DNA of 61,894 bases from Pseudomonadota bacterium (GTDB taxonomy: Bacteria > Pseudomonadota > Gammaproteobacteria > UBA5335), in NCBI GenBank assembly GCA_034189865.1, contig JAXHTV010000017.1, positions 1 to 61,894 on the forward strand, given 5' to 3'. This document shows, one piece after another, positions 6,025 to 61,242 of the stretch. The stretch's first letter is position 1. Every line of letters begins with the position of its first letter. The notes under the pieces were generated by a model. The model saw only the letters and a program-made list of their open reading frames with translations. It had not been told where the DNA came from and ran no database searches. Made by a program: the position numbers and the translations under genes.

Positions 6025-7149
6025 TCAGTCGTTCTGGTGTTCAATCGGCTCCAGGTGCGGGAAACGGTCGCGATGGGTAAGCCCTGTGGGATAAATGGGT
6101 TCGCTTTGGGCGTAAGTGACGAGCAGGCGCCAGATGGCTCGAACACTGTCCAAGTGCGTTCTCTCGTAACCATGCGTCGCATCGGTGCCGAAGGTGATCA
6201 GGGCATCGCGGACGTCATGTCCGGCCGTGATGGCCGAGTTGGCGTCCGAGTAGTAGTAGCGGAACACATCGACCTGATAGGGGATTTGGTTATCCCGGCA
6301 TAGTTGGGTGAGTTTGTGCCGCAGGTGATAATCGTATGGCCCGCTGGTGTCTTGAGCACAAATCGTCACCCCGCGCTCTCGTGCATTTTGGCCGGGCGCG
6401 ACCGGACCGATGTCGATGCCGACAAATTCGCTGACCCGGTCGGAAAGCGATGCCCCGGCCCCCGTGCCGACTTCTTCGGTCACGGTGAAAATGGCGTGGA
6501 GATCAATCGCAGGGACGATGGCGTTCGCTTTGATGGTCCTAAGCGCCGTCAGGAGGGCGGCGGCGCCTGCCTTGTTGTCCAGGTGTCGGGCGGTCACAAA
6601 GCCGCTGTCGGAGACTTCCGGGTCCGAATCGAAGGCGACGTAGTCACCGATCTGAATGCCCAAATCAGCCAGATCAGCAGCGTCCAACGCCGGCTCGTTG
6701 ACACGCACCTCGATCTGCTTCCACCCAACCGGTAGCCGATCGACTGCCTCGTTGAAGGCATGGCCCGAGGCCAGCAGCGGAAGGACTTGGCCTCGGTAGG
6801 CGCCGCGTTGGGTGAAGATCGTCACGCGGCCACCTTCGGCGAAGCGGCTGGACCAGGTTCCTACCGGCGCCAACTGGAGGCGGCCATTGGGTTTGAGCGC
6901 TTTAACCGTGGCGCCGATAGTATCCAGGTGGTTGACGACCGCCCGCGAGTAAGTCGGATCGTGCCCTTGTAAGGTCGCGATGATCGTTCCCCGCCGCGTC
7001 AGCTGAAAGGGGATTTCCAGTCTTTCCAGTTCGCTGCACAGATAGCGCGAGAGCTCGTCGGTGAACCCGGTCACGCTCGGAATCGCCAGCATCTCCAGTA
7101 ACCGGTCCAACAGATAGCGGTCGGCTTTGGCTTGGATCGACGCACTCAC
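6025..7149 (-). CDS. M42 family peptidase of the NAGGN osmolyte system, copy 1
   Basis: This 374-aa protein belongs to the M42 peptidase subfamily that accompanies the synthesis genes of N-acetylglutaminylglutamine amide (NAGGN). All expected dinuclear-metal and catalytic residues are present: His74 and Asp76 (VNHLDTIGA), bridging Asp191 (RHLDNKAGAA), general base Glu225 and ligand Glu226 (VTEEVG), Asp246 (GIDIGP), and the C-terminal HGYERTH. It is probably a working aminopeptidase or dipeptidase. Its role in osmolyte turnover is inferred from gene association and is not shown. It is the last gene of the operon, 6 bp after its paralogue. Confidence 0.88.
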   Translation of the reverse strand: MSASIQAKADRYLLDRLLEMLAIPSVTGFTDELSRYLCSELERLEIPFQLTRRGTIIATLQGHDPTYSRAVVNHLDTIGATVKALKPNGRLQLAPVGTWSSRFAEGGRVTIFTQRGAYRGQVLPLLASGHAFNEAVDRLPVGWKQIEVRVNEPALDAADLADLGIQIGDYVAFDSDPEVSDSGFVTARHLDNKAGAAALLTALRTIKANAIVPAIDLHAIFTVTEEVGTGAGASLSDRVSEFVGIDIGPVAPGQNARERGVTICAQDTSGPYDYHLRHKLTQLCRDNQIPYQVDVFRYYYSDANSAITAGHDVRDALITFGTDATHGYERTHLDSVRAIWRLLVTYAQSEPIYPTGLTHRDRFPHLEPIEHQND

Positions 7150-7155
7150 CGGTTC

Positions 7156-8337
7156 TTAATCCTTGTCACGAGATGGGTCGTCGTGCTCGGGGTGGATGAC
7201 ATCCTGGGGTGCGGGAACGCGCGCCGGCATCGGTGGCATATTCTCTTCGGTGATTTGGTGGGAGAACTTATCGACACTGACGATGGGCGTGTCCTGGTCG
7301 AACGTGGGTTCGGTGGTGACATAGGCGATCAGCAGCCGGCCGATGTTCAAAAGACTATCGATGTGGGTGCGTTCGGTGCTGTGTGATGCGTCGCCAGCAT
7401 AGGCGATCACGGCCGTACGGACGTCATGGCCGGCGGCAAGAGCTGAGGCGGTGTCGCTGTGGTAAGCCTCGAGGAGCTTTTTCTGGCAAGGAATTTTTTC
7501 CCGCTCGGCGATGCGTTGCAAGTTGGCGATGAAGTGATAATCGTACGGACCGCTGGCATCGCCCGCCGCAATAGTGACGCGGCGCATCGGGCTTTTTTCG
7601 TCCGAGGGGACCGAGGCGAAGTCCACCGTGAGCAACTCGCTCACCTCCGGCAAGACCGCGCTGCCGGAGCCGAAACCTACCGTTTCGGTAACCGTGAACA
7701 GAAAATACGTATCGCGCCTTGGCCGTTGCTCACTTTCCACCAGCACGCGAAGGGTTTCCAGTACGGCCGCCGCACCGGCTTTGTTGTCCAAATTGCGAGC
7801 GATGATAAAGCCGTTATCCAAGACCTCCGGAAGCGCGTCTAGCGCAATGAAATCACCGACTTCAATGCCGAGTGCGCGAACGTCGTCGTCATTGAAAACG
7901 GCTTCGTCCAAGCGTAACTCGATGTGATCCCAATCCATCGGGACGCCTTCCACGCCTTTGTCACGGGACACGCCCCACTCGACGGTGGGCAGCAAGGTGC
8001 CCCGGAATGCCCGGTGTTCGCTGAACAAGGTGACGCGGGCGCCTTCGGCAAAACGGCTCGACCAATAGCCGATGGGCGCAACCTGGATTCGCCCGTCCGG
8101 GCGGATCAGGCGAACCATGGCGCCGATGGTGTCGATATGGTTGACCACTGCCCGGACCGGCCCATTGCCGGTTCCGGGGAGTTTGCACCGGATGGTGCCG
8201 CGGCGGGTCAGGTTGTAGTCGATGCCGATTCGTTCCAACTCGCGGCCGACGTAATGGACGATTTCATCGGTGAAACCGCTGGGGCTGGGGATCGCCAATA
8301 GTTCCAGCAGTGTTTTCTGTAGACGTTGTGCGTTCAC
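7156..8337 (-). CDS. M42 family peptidase of the NAGGN osmolyte system, copy 2 (altered active site)
   Basis: A 393-aa paralogue of the following gene. I place the start at GTG 8337, one base after the ngg stop; a longer frame reaching 8445 would read through the ngg 3' end in another frame and has no family similarity there. His67, Asp69 (VNHIDTIGA), Asp184 (RNLDNKAGAA), Asp239 and the C-terminal HSTERTH are kept. The normally paired glutamates read Glu218-Thr219, so the metal-ligand Glu is replaced by Thr. A C-terminal tail of about 45 residues, rich in Pro, His and Asp, is unlike copy 1. It may have reduced activity, altered metal use, or a structural role in a mixed oligomer. Confidence 0.83.
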   Translation of the reverse strand: MNAQRLQKTLLELLAIPSPSGFTDEIVHYVGRELERIGIDYNLTRRGTIRCKLPGTGNGPVRAVVNHIDTIGAMVRLIRPDGRIQVAPIGYWSSRFAEGARVTLFSEHRAFRGTLLPTVEWGVSRDKGVEGVPMDWDHIELRLDEAVFNDDDVRALGIEVGDFIALDALPEVLDNGFIIARNLDNKAGAAAVLETLRVLVESEQRPRRDTYFLFTVTETVGFGSGSAVLPEVSELLTVDFASVPSDEKSPMRRVTIAAGDASGPYDYHFIANLQRIAEREKIPCQKKLLEAYHSDTASALAAGHDVRTAVIAYAGDASHSTERTHIDSLLNIGRLLIAYVTTEPTFDQDTPIVSVDKFSHQITEENMPPMPARVPAPQDVIHPEHDDPSRDKD

Positions 8338-8338
8338 T

Positions 8339-10036
8339 TTATAAGACCGGCAACCGCTCCTTGGCCTTGTCGACTTTCGACAGGGGGAACAGTAAATCAA
8401 TGAACCGCTCTGCGGTGGGCTGCGGTTCGTGGTTCGCAAGGCCAACCCGTTCGTTGGCCTCGATGATCACGTAGTCGGGTTGATCTGGTGACTGTACCAT
8501 GAAGTCGAAACCGACCACGGGGATTTCAAGGCGCTTGGCCGCCTTGACGGCGGCGTCGACCAGCCGGGGATGAAGAATCTCTGTCACGTCGTGCAAGGTG
8601 CCGCCCGTGTGCAGATTGGCGGTTTTTCGTACGGCGATACGCTGACCCTCGGCGGGAATGCTGTCGAGCTGAACACCCTGCTCGACCAAGCATTTTTCCG
8701 TTTCACTGTCGATAGGGATAGTGCTCTCACCGCCGGTGGCCGCTTCGCGCCGCCGGCTTTGTTTTTCAATCAACGTTCGCGCCGTATTGACTCCATCGCC
8801 GATAATTTCCGCCGCCTTGCGCATGGCCGCGGCGACCACATGATAGTTGATCACGACAATTCTGAGATCATGGCCTTCCACCACCTGTTCCAGTAACACC
8901 CGCTCGGAGAACTGCCAGGCCGTTTGGATGGCCGCTTCGAGTTCCGCCGCTGATCGAACCCCCACGGTGATGCCTTTACCTTGCTCTCCAATAGTCGGCT
9001 TGACGACCACGGTGCCGTGTTTTTGGAGAAATGCTCGATTTTCCGTGTCCGTGCCGGCCAATTGGAAGTCGGGAACCTTCAACCCGTCTTTGCTTAGCCA
9101 GCGGCTGGTGACGTATTTGTCCTGGCAGCGACTCATGGCGATGGCGGTGGTGAGATCGCACAAGGATTCCCGGCAGGTCACGCTTTTGCCGCCGCGGGTC
9201 AGTCGAAAGTAGCCCTCAGATGGATCCAACAGTTCCACGGCGATGCCTCGCGATCGCGCCTCGTCGACAATGATGCGGGCATAGGGGTTGAGGTTATGGC
9301 GAATTTCCGGGCCGATGAATAGCGCTTCGTTGTAGGCGTTTTTGTTCTTGATGCTAAACGTTTGGATGGGTTCGAAGCCGAGTTTCTGATACAGCGCCTT
9401 GGCTTGGTGATTGTCGTGGATGACGGAAAGATCCATGTGGCTGCGGCCAAGCTTGCGAAAGTGATGGGCCAGAGCGCGCACCAGGTACTCGCCAACTTTG
9501 GGTCGCTTGGCCAGTGGGTCCACCGCCAAGCACCACAGGCTGCAACCTTGGGTTTTATCGCCCAGTACCGCGCGATGGTCGATACCCATCACGGTTCCGA
9601 AGACTTCGCCCGTGACCTCGTCCGAGACGACGAAGAACAAGAGTTTCTTGGAGTGCCGGCAATCCCAAAGATACAAAGGGTCGGTGGGCACCATGTCGCG
9701 TTTCAGATACAAGTCGTTGATGATTTCCGCATCGTTCGGGCTTTCCAACCGGCGGAACACCAGCCCGGGATAGTTGGGCGGTTCGGCATCGGCCTTGGAC
9801 AGATCGAGCCGTAACATATCCGACGGATCCAGAAAGAGCTGTTGGGGGGCGTAAGAAAGCACCACGTGAGGATTGGCCACATAGACGGCGATATCCCGTT
9901 TGCCCCGATTTTCGTGGACCAGTTCAGCGGCCACGGTTTCGGCGTCTCCACAGTGGTTGGCGAAAATGACACGACCCCATCCGCAATAGACGTGATGGGT
10001 GCCGGTTTCGGCTTCCAGAATCTCTTGCTCTGTCAT
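8339..10036 (-). CDS. ngg: N-acetylglutaminylglutamine synthetase
   Basis: A 565-aa fusion of a GNAT acetyltransferase domain (about residues 90-235, with the acetyl-CoA-site region ending NHQAKALYQKLGFEPI) and an ATP-grasp ligase domain (about 300-555, with VVKPTIGEQGKG, LLEQVVEGHDLR and IIEANERVG). This architecture is that of Ngg, which makes N-acetylglutaminylglutamine from glutamine units. The ATP-grasp part resembles cyanophycin synthetase. It follows asnO after 56 bp and is separated from the next gene by a single base, so the genes are cotranscribed. Expression is probably raised by osmotic stress, as for characterised homologues; no specific operator is visible. Confidence 0.92.
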   Translation of the reverse strand: MTEQEILEAETGTHHVYCGWGRVIFANHCGDAETVAAELVHENRGKRDIAVYVANPHVVLSYAPQQLFLDPSDMLRLDLSKADAEPPNYPGLVFRRLESPNDAEIINDLYLKRDMVPTDPLYLWDCRHSKKLLFFVVSDEVTGEVFGTVMGIDHRAVLGDKTQGCSLWCLAVDPLAKRPKVGEYLVRALAHHFRKLGRSHMDLSVIHDNHQAKALYQKLGFEPIQTFSIKNKNAYNEALFIGPEIRHNLNPYARIIVDEARSRGIAVELLDPSEGYFRLTRGGKSVTCRESLCDLTTAIAMSRCQDKYVTSRWLSKDGLKVPDFQLAGTDTENRAFLQKHGTVVVKPTIGEQGKGITVGVRSAAELEAAIQTAWQFSERVLLEQVVEGHDLRIVVINYHVVAAAMRKAAEIIGDGVNTARTLIEKQSRRREAATGGESTIPIDSETEKCLVEQGVQLDSIPAEGQRIAVRKTANLHTGGTLHDVTEILHPRLVDAAVKAAKRLEIPVVGFDFMVQSPDQPDYVIIEANERVGLANHEPQPTAERFIDLLFPLSKVDKAKERLPVL

Positions 10037-10092
10037 GATGTGGCTCCTGGCGTCAGGTTCCGTGACACAATGGATTTGGCGGTTGATCTGTA

Positions 10093-11868
10093 CTACAGGT
10101 CATGGTTTTGTAACCAGAGTTCCAGCAGACCGAGCTGCCAGAGCTTGGAGCCTCTCAGCGGGGTGATGTGATCGTGTGGTTCGGCGAGCAGTCGTGCCAC
10201 GTAGTCTTCCCGGAATAGCCCCCGCTGACGGGCCCGGTCGTTGGTCAACGCATCCTGCACGTAACCGAGAATCGGTCCGGATAGGTACTTTAAAGCGGGG
10301 ACCGGGAAATACCCTTTCGGGCGGTCGATGACCGCGGCAGGTATTACTTGGCGGGCCGCTTCCTTGAGGACCAATTTGCCGTCGCCGGCGACTTTGTGTT
10401 CCGGCGGGATCCGGGCTGCAAACTCGACCAGTTCGTGATCCAAAAAGGGCACCCGAGCCTCCAGCCCCCAGGCCATGGTCATGTTGTCCACCCGTTTGAC
10501 GGGGTCGTCGACCAGCATCACCGTCGAGTCCAGTCTTAGCGCTTTGTCCACGGGGTGGTGCGCGCCCGGGGTATCGAAATGCCGCCGGACGAACGCGGCT
10601 GCGGCATCGTCCGGTGTGGCGTGGGCGGCTTGTACCGTGGCCAGATATTCATCGAAGTCTCGGTCGAAAAACGCCTGTCGATAGCTGGAGAAGGGGTCGG
10701 TGGTGCTCACCAGTGGCGGATACCAATGGTAGCCGCCGAAGACCTCGTCGGCTCCTTGCCCGCTCTGCACCGCGCGGCAGCTTTTGGAGACTTCACGGGA
10801 GAGTAAGTAAAACCCGATGCAGTCGTGGCTGACCATCGGTTCGGACATGGCGGCGATGGCGTCCGGCAAATGGGTTAGTAGTTCGTCCGACGCCACACGG
10901 ATGCGGTGGTGGTCGGTGCCATAAGCTTGGGCGATGATGTCGGAATACTGAAACTCGTCACCGGCTTCGTTGCCGGCGGCTTCGAATCCGACCGAATAGG
11001 TCTTGATGCGCTCGGCGCCTGCTTCCGCCATGAGCCCGACCAAGAGGCTGGAGTCTACGCCGCCGGATAATAATACCCCGACATCGACCGCCGCCACCAA
11101 GCGCCGTTTCACAGCGGCCCGGAGCTCATCCAGCAGCAGGTCGCGCCACTCGTTCAGCGAGCGGCTTTGGTGGGCCGCATCGTGTGTGTAGGTCAGTTGC
11201 CAGTAGGCGTGCTCGGTCATGTGCCCATCTTCGCCGATCCGCATCCAATGGCCGGGCGGCAGTTTGCGGACCCCCTTGAGCAGTGTGTAGGGCGCCGGGA
11301 CGACGGCGTGAAAATTCAGATAAAAATTCAACGCTTCGGCATCAATAGATGTGTCGACGCCGCCGGCAGCGACCAGGGCCGGCAGAGTGGAAGCGAAACG
11401 AAAGTGACTGCGATCGCGGCTGTAGTACAGCGGTTTGATGCCGAGCCGGTCTCGGGCGAGAAAGGTCTCGCCGCTGTCTCGCTCCCAAATGGCGAAGGCG
11501 AACATGCCCTTGAATCGCTCAAGACACTCCGCGCCCCAGGCGTGATAGGCTTTTAAGATGACCTCGGTGTCGCCATCGGAGTAGAAGCGATAGCCTTTTG
11601 CGGTCAGTTCCTGGCGCAGCTCCGGGTGGTTGTAAATTGCCCCGTTGAACACGATGCCCAGGCCCAGCGACGGATCGAACATGGGCTGTTGGGAGTGAGC
11701 GGACAGGTCCATGATCATCAGTCGGCGGTGGCCAAATCCGCGGTTGCCGGCGCAGAATACCCCGCCTTCGTCGGGGCCCCTGGGTTCCATGGTCTGGTTC
11801 ATGACGGCCAGTACGGACGGATTGACGGCTGTGCCGTCCCAGCGGATTTCTCCGTTAATTCCACACAT
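10093..11868 (-). CDS. asnO: N-acetylglutaminylglutamine amidotransferase
   Basis: A 591-aa asparagine-synthase-like enzyme that amidates N-acetylglutaminylglutamine to the osmolyte NAGGN. The N-terminal nucleophile Cys2 is present (MCGINGE), so glutamine can serve as nitrogen donor. The PP-loop SGGVDSS at residues 268-274 forms the adenylating site. It is the first gene of the minus-strand operon asnO-ngg-M42-M42. The neighbourhood separates it from housekeeping asparagine synthetase AsnB, which has a similar layout. Confidence 0.92.
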   Translation of the reverse strand: MCGINGEIRWDGTAVNPSVLAVMNQTMEPRGPDEGGVFCAGNRGFGHRRLMIMDLSAHSQQPMFDPSLGLGIVFNGAIYNHPELRQELTAKGYRFYSDGDTEVILKAYHAWGAECLERFKGMFAFAIWERDSGETFLARDRLGIKPLYYSRDRSHFRFASTLPALVAAGGVDTSIDAEALNFYLNFHAVVPAPYTLLKGVRKLPPGHWMRIGEDGHMTEHAYWQLTYTHDAAHQSRSLNEWRDLLLDELRAAVKRRLVAAVDVGVLLSGGVDSSLLVGLMAEAGAERIKTYSVGFEAAGNEAGDEFQYSDIIAQAYGTDHHRIRVASDELLTHLPDAIAAMSEPMVSHDCIGFYLLSREVSKSCRAVQSGQGADEVFGGYHWYPPLVSTTDPFSSYRQAFFDRDFDEYLATVQAAHATPDDAAAAFVRRHFDTPGAHHPVDKALRLDSTVMLVDDPVKRVDNMTMAWGLEARVPFLDHELVEFAARIPPEHKVAGDGKLVLKEAARQVIPAAVIDRPKGYFPVPALKYLSGPILGYVQDALTNDRARQRGLFREDYVARLLAEPHDHITPLRGSKLWQLGLLELWLQNHDL

Positions 11869-12159
11869 ATAGAACTGTTCCGTGGGTTATCTGCGGATCG
11901 TTTGGGCGGGTGATGATGAATAAATCTGTGCGTACGCGTGCGACGTTCCGCTGAGTTGTTTTTCGGTTGCGTTTGATCAGGGCGACGAAGGGGGCTTGAA
12001 GAGGATGCTCGCTGGAATACTCGCTTAAGCGCTTTGGCGCCTGCGAGTTCCCGGAAGTATGGGCTACAGCTTGGTAGATAACCGTCAAAATATTGAGCAA
12101 TCTTAAGGGTTCCTCGGAGGCGAGGCACGAATCTGAATTAAATCCTGCAATCGCCGGAT
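11869..12159. other. Divergent intergenic region between asnO and the DUF3147 gene
   Basis: This 291-bp stretch must hold the promoters of the osmolyte operon (leftward) and probably of the DUF3147 gene (rightward). I could not assign a convincing sigma-70 pair for either. A 5-bp hairpin CCTCG-GAGG-CGAGG lies at 12112-12125. No coding signal was seen. Confidence 0.4.
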
Positions 12160-12332
12160 CGATGCATTCCGTTGTGGGTACCCTGACCGTTACCTTAACG
12201 TATCGTAGGGGTGCTTGTCAGGGATCGGCTGCGATTGACTCTTTCAAGCACCCTGTGATCGGTTCGGAGAACCGACACCGCCTGTCCGCTCTCGAGCTCG
12301 AACAGGCGGTCAGGGGATTCGACGGTGCATCG
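12160..12332 (+). promoter_or_regulatory. Candidate structured RNA leader of the DUF3147 gene
   Basis: Nested complementary segments suggest a folded 5' leader ending 29 nt before the start codon. Outer helix: CGATGCA 12160-12166 with TGCATCG 12326-12332. Second: CCCTGA 12181-12186 with TCAGGG 12310-12315. Inside are three arms: GGGTGCTTG 12209-12217 with CAAGCACCC 12245-12253 (its interior also pairs), TCGGTTC 12259-12265 with GAACCGA 12269-12275, and CCGCCTGT 12278-12285 with ACAGGCGG 12302-12309. I do not recognise a riboswitch consensus. Chance pairing has not been excluded by alignment. Confidence 0.45.
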
Positions 12333-12361
12333 CAAAGGGCGAATTTTTATGAGGACTGTCC

Positions 12362-12709
12362 TTGTACGTCGCAGTTAAAGTCGTCGTGACTGCCGTTTTG
12401 GTCGTGGCGGTTTCCGAGCTGGCCAAGCGCAGTTCGTTCATGGGCGCGCTGTTGGCGTCGGTGCCGTTGGTGTCTGTCCTGGCCATACTCTGGCTTTATT
12501 TTGATACCCAAGATATTTCAAAAGTCAGTGCCTTGGCCTCAAGCATTTTTTGGCTGGTCTTGCCGTCGCTCGCCTTCTTTTTGTTATTGCCGTGGCTACT
12601 TAAAACCGGCGTGAACTTCTACCTTAGCTTGGGCTGTTCCATTGCAGTGACGGCAGTCTGCTACGGACTGGTGGTGGCGGTTCTGGGCCGTTTTGGCATC
12701 GGGCTATGA
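12362..12709 (+). CDS. DUF3147 family membrane protein
   Basis: A 115-aa, almost wholly hydrophobic protein with about four membrane segments. It matches what I recall of the DUF3147 family: an N-terminal SELAKRSSFMGALLASVPL motif, then WLYFDTQD, and SLAFFLLLPWLLKTGVNF near the middle. The function of the family is unknown. The start is a TTG preceded by GAGGA at about 7 nt; no in-frame ATG is available. It lies 48 bp before the TldD-like gene and downstream of a candidate structured leader. Confidence 0.8.
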   Translation: MYVAVKVVVTAVLVVAVSELAKRSSFMGALLASVPLVSVLAILWLYFDTQDISKVSALASSIFWLVLPSLAFFLLLPWLLKTGVNFYLSLGCSIAVTAVCYGLVVAVLGRFGIGL

Positions 12710-12757: not shown

Positions 12758-14194
12758 ATGACCACTGAAAAAATCATCAGAAACTTCAAGCAAGTGCTTC
12801 CGGTCGTGGACTGGTGGTCTTTGCGTTTGGTATTCGAAAACGAGGAGTCATTGCGGCTTCGGCAGGGGGTGCTGCAACCACCCCATCTGACACACAGCCA
12901 AGGTGCTCACATCACGGTGTGTCATCGCGGCGGGATGGCGTATGCTGCCACCTGCGAGCTGACGCCTGCAGGTTTCCGCAGGGCGTTGGCCGAAGCGCTC
13001 GAATGGGCGCTTAGCACGCGAGATTGGGGGCTGTTCGATGCGGACCGGTTTGCTCGTCCATCACGCTCGGGGCATTACCGCTCGCCGGTTGAGTCGCCCT
13101 GGGACAGCGCGAGTGTGGGCGATAAGATCGATCGCTTGCGAGGTGTCAGCGATGCGCTGAAAGTCAGCGACACCATTGTCGATTGGCAGGTCGAGTTGAC
13201 CGCGAGCCACGTTCGAACGCTGTTACTGACCAGCGATGATGTGGAAATCGAACAGGATTTTTCCTACCTCTTGCCGGGCTATATGGCGGTTGCCAATAAA
13301 GGTGCGCAAACACAGACGCGTTCCGGCGGCGGGTGGGGGAACGTCCGTCAAGGTGGCTTGGAGCAGTTGTCGAACCTTGGGTTTGATCAAGATGCCCAGC
13401 GCGTGGCCGAGGAGGCGGCTGCTCTGGTCGACGCTCCGGAGTGTCCCGACGCAAACATGTCGGTGTTGTTGATGCCGAGCCAAATGACCTTGCAAATCCA
13501 TGAGAGTATCGGGCATCCGCTCGAGCTGGATCGCATCTTGGGCGACGAGCGCAACTACGCCGGGACCAGTTTCGTCACCTTGGATATGTTTGGGAGTTAC
13601 CGCTATGGTTCACGGCTTTTGAATATCACCTACGACCCCACGTGGGCCAATGAGGCCGCAAGCTACGCTTTTGACGACGAGGGCACACCGGCGGAGCGAG
13701 AGTTTTTAATACGCGACGGCATTCTCGAGCGTCCGCTGGGTGGTGCTCTATCACAGTTGCGCGCGGGCACAGCGGGGGTGGCCAACAGCCGCGCGTGCAG
13801 TTGGAACCGCCCGCCCATCGATCGTATGGCCAATCTCAACTTGGAGCCGGGTGAACATCCTTTCGATCAGTTGGTGGCCTCGATAGAGCGGGGCGTGTTG
13901 ATGGATACCAACCGGTCGTGGTCCATCGACGACAGTCGCAACAAGTTTCAGTTCGGTTGTGAGCTGGGCCGACTCATCCAGGACGGCGAGCTCAAAGGCG
14001 TTGTGAGAAATCCGAACTACCGGGGCATCTCTGCGAACTTTTGGCGTAACCTCGTCGCCGTGGGGGATGGAGAGACCTTCGAGGTCGGTGGGACGCCCTA
14101 TTGCGGCAAAGGTGAGCCCAACCAGGCCATTGCCGTCGGGCACGCTTCTCCCGCCTGCGTTTTTCAGCAGGTTGATGTCTTTGGCGGCCTTTGA
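12758..14194 (+). CDS. TldD-like metalloprotease subunit (TldD/PmbA family)
   Basis: A 478-aa protein of the TldD/PmbA (COG0312) family. The HExxxH metal motif of TldD is present as HESIGH at residues 248-253, followed by the family pattern PLELD. The C-terminal YCGKGEP segment matches the conserved TldD cysteine region. TldD works as a heterodimer with TldE/PmbA to degrade unfolded or modified peptides, for example in microcin maturation and antitoxin removal. The adjacent next gene looks like the partner. Whether this is the housekeeping TldD or a divergent paralogue cannot be told from the window. Confidence 0.85.
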   Translation: MTTEKIIRNFKQVLPVVDWWSLRLVFENEESLRLRQGVLQPPHLTHSQGAHITVCHRGGMAYAATCELTPAGFRRALAEALEWALSTRDWGLFDADRFARPSRSGHYRSPVESPWDSASVGDKIDRLRGVSDALKVSDTIVDWQVELTASHVRTLLLTSDDVEIEQDFSYLLPGYMAVANKGAQTQTRSGGGWGNVRQGGLEQLSNLGFDQDAQRVAEEAAALVDAPECPDANMSVLLMPSQMTLQIHESIGHPLELDRILGDERNYAGTSFVTLDMFGSYRYGSRLLNITYDPTWANEAASYAFDDEGTPAEREFLIRDGILERPLGGALSQLRAGTAGVANSRACSWNRPPIDRMANLNLEPGEHPFDQLVASIERGVLMDTNRSWSIDDSRNKFQFGCELGRLIQDGELKGVVRNPNYRGISANFWRNLVAVGDGETFEVGGTPYCGKGEPNQAIAVGHASPACVFQQVDVFGGL

Positions 14195-14195
14195 G

Positions 14196-15512
14196 ATGGA
14201 AGTCTATTTTCGTGAGCTTTCGGCGCGGCTTTTTGCCTCTCTGCATGCCGAAGAGGTGATGTTTGCCAGTTATGAGGGCGAAAGATCGGATTTCGTTCGT
14301 ATCAACCAGAGTCGAATTCGTCAGGCCGGTCGGGTCCGGCAACAATTCCTGGAGCTGAATCTGATCCACGACGGACGGCAGCTTAACGCTAGTCTGTCGT
14401 TGACGGGCCAACTGGACGACGATTTGGCCCAAGCGAAGTTCTGCCTGAAGCAACTGCGCGAACGACTGCCATTTCTTCCCCGTGATCCATTTCTGAGCCA
14501 TGCCACCGAGCGCTTTGAACTGCGAGAGGTCACGGACAATGAGTTACCGCCCTCGCGACAGGCGGTGGAAGCGATCCTGGCCGCTGCCGACGGGCTCGAT
14601 TTGGTCGGTCTGTGGTCTGGCGGTGAGTTGGTCCGTGGTTTGGCTGGCTCGGTAGGCCAGTACGGTTGGCATCGTCAGAGCAGTTTTAACTTCGATTGGA
14701 GCGTTTACCATCAAGCCGACAAGGCCAGCAAGCAGAGCTGCGCGGGGGCACACTGGGATTCGGCGGTTGCGTTACGCCAAATCTCCGCCGCCCGCGAGGA
14801 TCTGGCGATGCTGGCCAAACCGCCACGGACGATCCAGCCCGGGCGTTATCGTGTGTTCCTTTCGCCGAGCGCGATGTTCGAGATCCTAACGTTACTGAAT
14901 TGGGGCGGATTTGGCCTGAAAAGCCACCGAACCCAACAAACCCCATTGCTTCGGATGGTGAAAGAGGGCGTAGAGCTCGATGGGCGTATCCACCTCACAG
15001 AAGATCACGCCGGCGGGTTGACGCCGCGATTTACGCGTCGCGGGTTTGTCAAACCGGAGCGAGTCGAGTTGATCTCGGCAGGGCGTTACCGCGATTGTCT
15101 GGCCAATTCGCGGAGCGCGAAAGAGTATGGCGTTGCCGTGAACTGTGCTATCGAGCACCCCGAGTCGCTCGTGATGCAGGGTGGGCAGCTGCCCCGCATG
15201 GATGTCCTGAGGGCGCTCGACACGGGCATTTATGTGAGCAATTTGTGGTATTGCAACTATTCGGATCGCAATCACTGTCGCATCACCGGGATGACACGCT
15301 TTGCTTGCTTTTGGGTCGAAGGTGGCAAGCCGGTCGCGCCGATCAACGTGATGCGCTTTGACGAAAGCTTGTTCGACGTGCTGGGAGACAAGCTTGTCGA
15401 TCTGACGGTTGAACAGGATTACATTGTTGATTTCACGACCTATGGCAAACGTTCTGAAAACAGCGCGAGATTGCCGGGCGCTTTGGTCGACGATTTTCGA
15501 TTCACTCTCTAG
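14196..15512 (+). CDS. TldE/PmbA-like partner subunit
   Basis: A 438-aa TldD/PmbA-family protein without the HExxxH motif, as expected for the non-catalytic TldE (PmbA) subunit. I choose ATG 14196, two bases after the tldD-like stop; ATG 14175, which overlaps the upstream gene by 20 bp, is an alternative that adds seven residues. SAKEYG (about residue 308) and the C-terminal domain fit the family fold, although overall similarity to classical PmbA looks low. Its immediate coupling to the TldD-like gene supports a dedicated heterodimer; in E. coli the two subunits are encoded apart. Confidence 0.8.
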   Translation: MEVYFRELSARLFASLHAEEVMFASYEGERSDFVRINQSRIRQAGRVRQQFLELNLIHDGRQLNASLSLTGQLDDDLAQAKFCLKQLRERLPFLPRDPFLSHATERFELREVTDNELPPSRQAVEAILAAADGLDLVGLWSGGELVRGLAGSVGQYGWHRQSSFNFDWSVYHQADKASKQSCAGAHWDSAVALRQISAAREDLAMLAKPPRTIQPGRYRVFLSPSAMFEILTLLNWGGFGLKSHRTQQTPLLRMVKEGVELDGRIHLTEDHAGGLTPRFTRRGFVKPERVELISAGRYRDCLANSRSAKEYGVAVNCAIEHPESLVMQGGQLPRMDVLRALDTGIYVSNLWYCNYSDRNHCRITGMTRFACFWVEGGKPVAPINVMRFDESLFDVLGDKLVDLTVEQDYIVDFTTYGKRSENSARLPGALVDDFRFTL

Positions 15513-18311: not shown

Positions 18312-18362
18312 GGCGAGCTCATTACATCAATATGCCGAAACCGGTGAGTGATGTTTCACCTC

Positions 18363-18401
18363 AAGAAAGCCGCCGTGAAGGTTAAACACGGCGGCTTTCT
18401 T
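18363..18401. terminator. Bidirectional Rho-independent terminator
   Basis: AAGAAAGCCGCCGTG (18363-18377) and its exact complement (18387-18401) form a 15-bp perfect stem with a 9-nt loop. The A-rich and T-rich ends of the stem supply a short U tract in both directions. It sits between the convergent TVP38-like and hydrolase genes and so serves both. Confidence 0.85.
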
Positions 18402-18434
18402 GCGAATGGCGTTTCGTCTGAGACGGGTTTTGCC

Positions 18435-60231: not shown

Positions 60232-61242
60232 ATGCAGGGCTCCGTAGCAGATTTTTTGAGACCACGTTTAGTCGATGTCGATGAGTTCTCGCCAACGAGG
60301 GCGCGCATCGTTCTTGAGCCGCTTGAGCGAGGTTTCGGTCACACGTTGGGTAATGCGCTTCGCCGCGTTTTGCTTTCGTCTATGCCGGGCGCCGCGGTTG
60401 TCGAGGCCGAGTTCGAAGGCGTGCTTCACGAGTACAGTACGCTTGACGGCGTGCAAGAAGATGTCATCGATGTTCTTCTGAATCTCAAGCAGTTGGCTAT
60501 TCGAATGCATAATCGTGCAGAGGCCAATCTGATGTTGAGTAAGGAAGGGCCTGGGCCGGTAAAGGCGTCTGATATCCAGTTAACGGATGATGTGGAGATC
60601 ATTAACCCAGACTTGGTGATCGCCAACCTTAGCGAAGGTGCCACGCTCACCGGTCGGTTGAAGGTTCGGCGGGGGCGCGGTTACGAGCCGGCGACGCAGC
60701 GGCAAGGTTCGTCGGAGGAGACGCGTTCTATTGGTGGAATCCAATTGGATGCCTCCTTTAGTCCGGTTCGACGGGTCTCCTACACGGTCGACAGTGCGCG
60801 TGTTGAGCAACGCACCGACCTGGATAAGCTTATTCTCGATATTGAGACCAACGGAACGCTGAAAGCGGAAGACGCCATACGCAGGGCCGCATCCATTCTT
60901 CAGGATCAACTTTCGTCCTTTGTGGAGCTGGAAAGCGTTGCAGTCGAAGAACCGAAATCTCAGGGCGCCTCGATGGACCCCTTGCTGCTTCGGCCTATTG
61001 ACGATTTGGAGCTGACAGTTCGCTCGGCGAACTGTCTCAAGGCCGAGAATATTTTTTATATCGGTGATTTGATTCAGCGCACTGAGCTGGAGCTGTTGAA
61101 AGCGCCAAATCTGGGTAAGAAATCTTTGACGGAAATCAAAGAGGTTCTTGCTTCCCACGACTTGTCGTTGGGTATGAAACTCGACAACTGGCCGCCACCT
61201 GAATTGCAGGATAAAAAGTCGGTTATTGAAGCCGGTGGCTGA
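60232..61242 (+). CDS. rpoA: DNA-directed RNA polymerase subunit alpha
   Basis: Alpha dimerises to start polymerase assembly. The 336-aa product has the N-terminal assembly domain ([20 protein letters not shown]) and the C-terminal DNA- and activator-binding domain from about residue 250 ([16 protein letters not shown], then [16 protein letters not shown]). E. coli alpha has 329 residues. It is 12 bp after rpsD. Confidence 0.99.

Follow-up and report, generated by a model that had tools for sequence, protein, structure and literature searches.

Divergent genes for an osmolyte-forming amidotransferase and for a 115-amino acid membrane protein are separated by a 493-nucleotide gap. Within it lies a sequence whose folding stability is exceptional, far above that of shuffled or neighboring sequence. 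It covers positions 12159 to 12333 of the window (the whole stretch of 61,894 nucleotides analyzed here) and is assigned to neither strand. From sequence comparison, it is best read as a lineage-restricted, single-copy, structured intergenic element. We tentatively favor a role as a cis-acting, static module in the 5' untranslated region (UTR) of the membrane protein gene, which would operate with no ligand-driven switch. Two other explanations, a DNA-level relic and chance, rank close behind, while a metabolite-sensing reading of the element is not supported.

Architecture and stability of the element

In the fold of 12159-12333 (-82.7 kcal/mol), two closing helices and an inner helix enclose three strong arms; it is well defined and extends from 12160 to 12332. 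The outer closing helix has 7 bp (CGATGCA/TGCATCG, 12160-12166 with 12326-12332; mean pair probability 0.97) and the second 6 bp (CCGTTG/CGACGG, 12169-12174 with 12320-12325; mean 0.91). A UU bulge separates their 5' halves, which span 12160 to 12174; the 3' halves span 12320 to 12332. These enclose a 7-bp inner helix (CCCTGAC/GTCAGGG, 12181-12187 with 12309-12315; mean 0.98), itself covered by an exact 9-nucleotide inverted repeat (12181-12189 with 12307-12315). Arm 1 (12208 to 12254) is a 10-bp hairpin (GGGGTGCTTG/CAAGCACCCT, 12208-12217 with 12245-12254; pair probability 0.97) with apical pairing. Arm 2 (12255 to 12278) combines GTG/CAC with TCGGTTC-GGA-GAACCGA (7 bp, 12259-12265 with 12269-12275; 0.94), and arm 3 (12279 to 12308) pairs CGCCTGT with ACAGGCG (7 bp, 12279-12285 with 12302-12308; 0.89) around an inner 3-bp pairing. 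A small hairpin at 12188-12192/12196-12200 is weak, with a mean pair probability of 0.45. An earlier sequence-only reading had described nested, non-conflicting helices ending 29 nucleotides before a TTG start codon; the helices are present and nested as described, with pair probabilities of 0.89-0.98, and the spacing is exact. Furthermore, the closing helix is kept at a probability of 0.95-0.97 in all five sequence contexts folded (263-451 nucleotides).

That reading had also proposed a comparison with shuffled controls, which the element passes on both strands. Segment 12150-12340 folds at -87.2 kcal/mol on the plus strand against -68.1 +/- 4.5 for its shuffles (z -4.22), and the minus strand has a z of -5.67; on neither strand did any of 200 dinucleotide shuffles match its energy. 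When the window was sampled at about 250 positions per strand, the element gave the lowest z on each strand. As a genome-scale control, we added 800 kb of the same genome, bringing the total to 861,894 bases, and scored 175-nucleotide windows with correction for dinucleotide content. The element ranks fifth on the plus strand and first on the minus strand for excess stability among 11,424 windows, and its plus-strand rank is still fifth of 11,424 when G-U pairs are forbidden. Of the other top-ranked windows, most of those that we inspected consist of one long terminator-like hairpin.

Two other strong folds were observed in the window. A very strong perfect hairpin at 18330-18425 (AAGAAAGCCGCCGTG...CACGGCGGCTTTCTT) lies between convergent genes and is probably a bidirectional terminator, and a strong plus-strand fold at 61001-61175 (z about -5.9) falls within an apparent rpoA coding sequence.

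The branched layout carries little weight alone, because its frequency in the genome is close to that in shuffled sequence: at least three arms of at least 7 bp, together with at least 13 closing pairs, are found in 38 of 9,011 genomic windows (about 0.4%) and in 6 of 2,243 shuffled ones (about 0.3%). The same layout had been taken as a sign of a sensing leader, an argument that these counts undercut. An impressive fold in one sequence is by itself no proof of a riboswitch when shuffled DNA gives similar layouts at a near-equal rate. The closing stem, with 31 pairs in a 215-nucleotide window, is above that of every other three-arm candidate listed.

The plus-strand fold has 64 pairs (61 Watson-Crick and 3 G-U) and the minus-strand fold 60, of which one is G-U; a single-sequence model built on the plus strand also gives a weak match to the minus strand at the same place. 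Since both strands fold about equally, with 61 of the 64 pairs Watson-Crick, folding assigns no RNA strand.

Gene context and expression signals

The membrane protein gene (12362..12709, plus strand, TTG start) matches NCBIfam PRK09272.1-2 (NF006749; E 3.1e-42, 143 bits against a cut-off of 119). It had been described as encoding a DUF3147 membrane protein: the small membrane protein stands, whereas the family name has to be replaced by the NCBIfam match. A Pfam search of the protein returned no family above cut-off, DUF3147 being absent even at E<=10, and six homologues gave no DUF3147 match at E<=1. The nearest Pfam family, GlpM, falls well below cut-off (E 0.097, 13.6 bits against 25). Two adjacent TldD/PmbA-like genes in overlapping reading frames follow at 12758-15512, the second with a Pfam match to the C-terminal domain only.

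The divergent neighbor (10093..11868, minus strand) encodes the amidotransferase of the osmolyte N-acetylglutaminylglutamine amide (NAGGN; TIGR03104, E 5.5e-298) and is followed by the NAGGN synthetase gene (8339-10036, minus strand; TIGR03103, E 4.5e-242). With a gene for an M42 glutamyl aminopeptidase (6028-7149), these form a complete minus-strand NAGGN cluster at 6028-11868, whose interior holds two small plus-strand reading frames, 7459-7839 and 7924-8298, with no Pfam family. We also considered a 98-amino acid reading frame running through the element as possible coding sequence and rejected it, as it has no match in Pfam families or plasmid proteins.

A likely Shine-Dalgarno sequence of the membrane protein gene, GAGGA, lies at 12351..12355 on the plus strand. 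It is predicted to pair locally with 12359-12363 or 12381-12385, that is, with nearby start-codon or coding bases, and would be masked by its own local hairpin; no pairing with the element is predicted in any of five contexts of 263-451 nucleotides. We found no terminator in the stretch that separates the element from the gene and, reading the sequence directly past the fold, no U-run terminator on either strand. No sigma-70-like promoter was recognised in the region. In silico, neither form of riboswitch expression platform, terminator/antiterminator or fold-coupled Shine-Dalgarno sequestration, was found.

Search for relatives and copies

No known consensus had been recognised in the element by eye, in agreement with Rfam 15: the whole window yields five tRNAs and nothing else at gathering score, and region 11869-12420 yields no match even at E<=5. 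No second copy exists in the genome, where a DNA search returned the query alone beyond chance 14-20-mers and the covariance model R1 hit one place only. The element is absent from eight other genomes of the same order, searched by DNA and covariance model, and a covariance-model search of 56 relatives gave no credible homologue. Only short or spurious matches were obtained in 369 genomes of the class (covariance model and DNA), in 398 phylum-sampled genomes (DNA) and in the phages and plasmids searched, which hold no copies; searches over more than 40 genomes ran with stricter filters, under which weak relatives could be missed.

Each such match was checked, and several were rejected individually. 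A covariance-model match with an E-value of 0.003 (G034) lies inside a pilT/pilU-type coding sequence and has many broken pairs; an exact 19-nucleotide match (G001) and a 35-nucleotide match (G447) fall in reading frames identified by eye as resembling smg and a MotA/TolQ-type membrane protein, respectively. Seven viral contigs have only the 9-bp arm pattern in common with the element and give no full-length model match.

Among 35 homologues of the membrane protein gene, no upstream region resembles the element by sequence or z-score, nor by model where this was tested. Two of these regions (L022 and L035) carry strong palindromes unrelated to the element; that of L035, from a Thioalkalivibrio metagenome-assembled genome, is a very large nested palindrome at 600-830 (z about -10) upstream of a PRK09272-type gene, with a MITE-like look. 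Upstream sequence of the NAGGN genes in the two same-family members checked is likewise without similarity to the element.

Possible roles and known systems

A static 5'-UTR module is the most economical reading because there is no element-Shine-Dalgarno contact, no terminator and no recognised sigma-70-like promoter. The plus strand would be transcribed within the 5' UTR of the PRK09272-family gene, and the fold may be a self-contained, mostly static cis-acting module that protects the mRNA 5' end or tunes translation; no ligand-driven switching would be involved. The reproducible stability excess, the context-independent predicted closing helix, the intergenic site 29 nucleotides upstream of a start codon served by a plausible Shine-Dalgarno sequence, the lack of relatives of the 98-amino acid reading frame and the slight plus-strand excess of pairs (64 against 60) argue for this role. 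The missing sigma-70-like site, the near-equal folding of both strands, the failure to find homologues of the element, the gene homologues with no comparable leader and the lack of element-Shine-Dalgarno pairing argue against it, and we hold it as a first choice short of an even chance.

The near-equal folding of the strands, in which G-U accounts for just 3 of the 64 plus-strand pairs and one of the 60 minus-strand pairs, suits an element or relic that is palindromic at the DNA level (an insertion resembling a MITE or REP, a cruciform or an array of protein-binding sites). Its inverted repeats would work, or once have worked, as DNA, and its RNA fold would be a by-product. The inverted-repeat termini and the unrelated palindromes upstream of two homologous genes point the same way, but the element is single-copy, the genome lacks a REP-type Y1 transposase, no target-site duplication is evident by eye, and phages, plasmids and related genomes searched hold no copies; we consider this origin rather doubtful, if next in rank. 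Somewhat less probable again is a functionless extreme of a G+C-rich intergenic region. Such an accident would fit a multibranch layout found nearly at shuffle frequency and the lack of conservation, and a top-five place among 11,424 windows is not impossible at random; against it, 0 of 200 shuffles reached the energy on either strand, most of the other top windows that were inspected look like functional terminators, and the 31 closing-stem pairs exceed those of every other three-arm candidate listed. An independent small RNA, encoded on one or the other strand between the divergent genes, would explain an autonomous fold that is equally strong on the minus strand, but with no sigma-70-like promoter, no U-run terminator directly past the fold on either strand and no conservation, it appears unlikely.

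Known riboswitch classes were mostly discovered through conservation. A new riboswitch class that senses a ligand and controls the small membrane protein, or the NAGGN genes if read from the minus strand, would account for the compact multibranch core, its stability and its site just before a gene. It is possible, yet the element, as modeled, lacks every distinguishing feature tested: no genome set searched yielded homologues, no terminator or element-Shine-Dalgarno pairing was found and the Shine-Dalgarno hairpin is local, homologous genes lack the element and none occurs near same-family NAGGN genes, the opposite strand folds equally well, and Rfam gives no match. We therefore rate it as slightly less likely still than a small RNA. 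Least probable of all would be a new class of structured RNA, narrow in distribution, that reacts to osmotic or ionic conditions beside the NAGGN operon and sets how strongly the membrane protein or osmolyte genes are expressed. If the element does function as an RNA, a sparsely sampled order would have provided an orphan leader next to osmolyte genes and a candidate osmotic or ion sensor.

Compared with the cis-regulatory leaders and riboswitches of Rfam, the element shares a multibranched fold of about 175 nucleotides close upstream of a start codon, but differs in that no Rfam match at any threshold tried, and no conservation, covariation or expression platform, was found. Like REP/BIME and MITE sequences, it lies between genes, contains inverted repeats and can fold on either strand with few G-U pairs; unlike them, it is single-copy and shows no evident target duplication. 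A PF01797 profile search for the Y1 (RAYT) transposase gave no match in the genome and did match five control genomes, so that, with the single copy, we rejected a REP/RAYT identity.

The NAGGN operon of Pseudomonas aeruginosa is controlled by a divergent MarR-type repressor, PA3458, with a palindromic DNA site (PMC8070244). No MarR gene lies between the amidotransferase and membrane protein genes here, and we rejected a PA3458-like site, the motif being at chance frequency in the window and absent from this intergenic region. Both loci place NAGGN biosynthesis genes next to an intergenic region from which another gene diverges; that gene encodes a MarR-type repressor in P. aeruginosa (PMC8070244) and a PRK09272-type membrane protein here.
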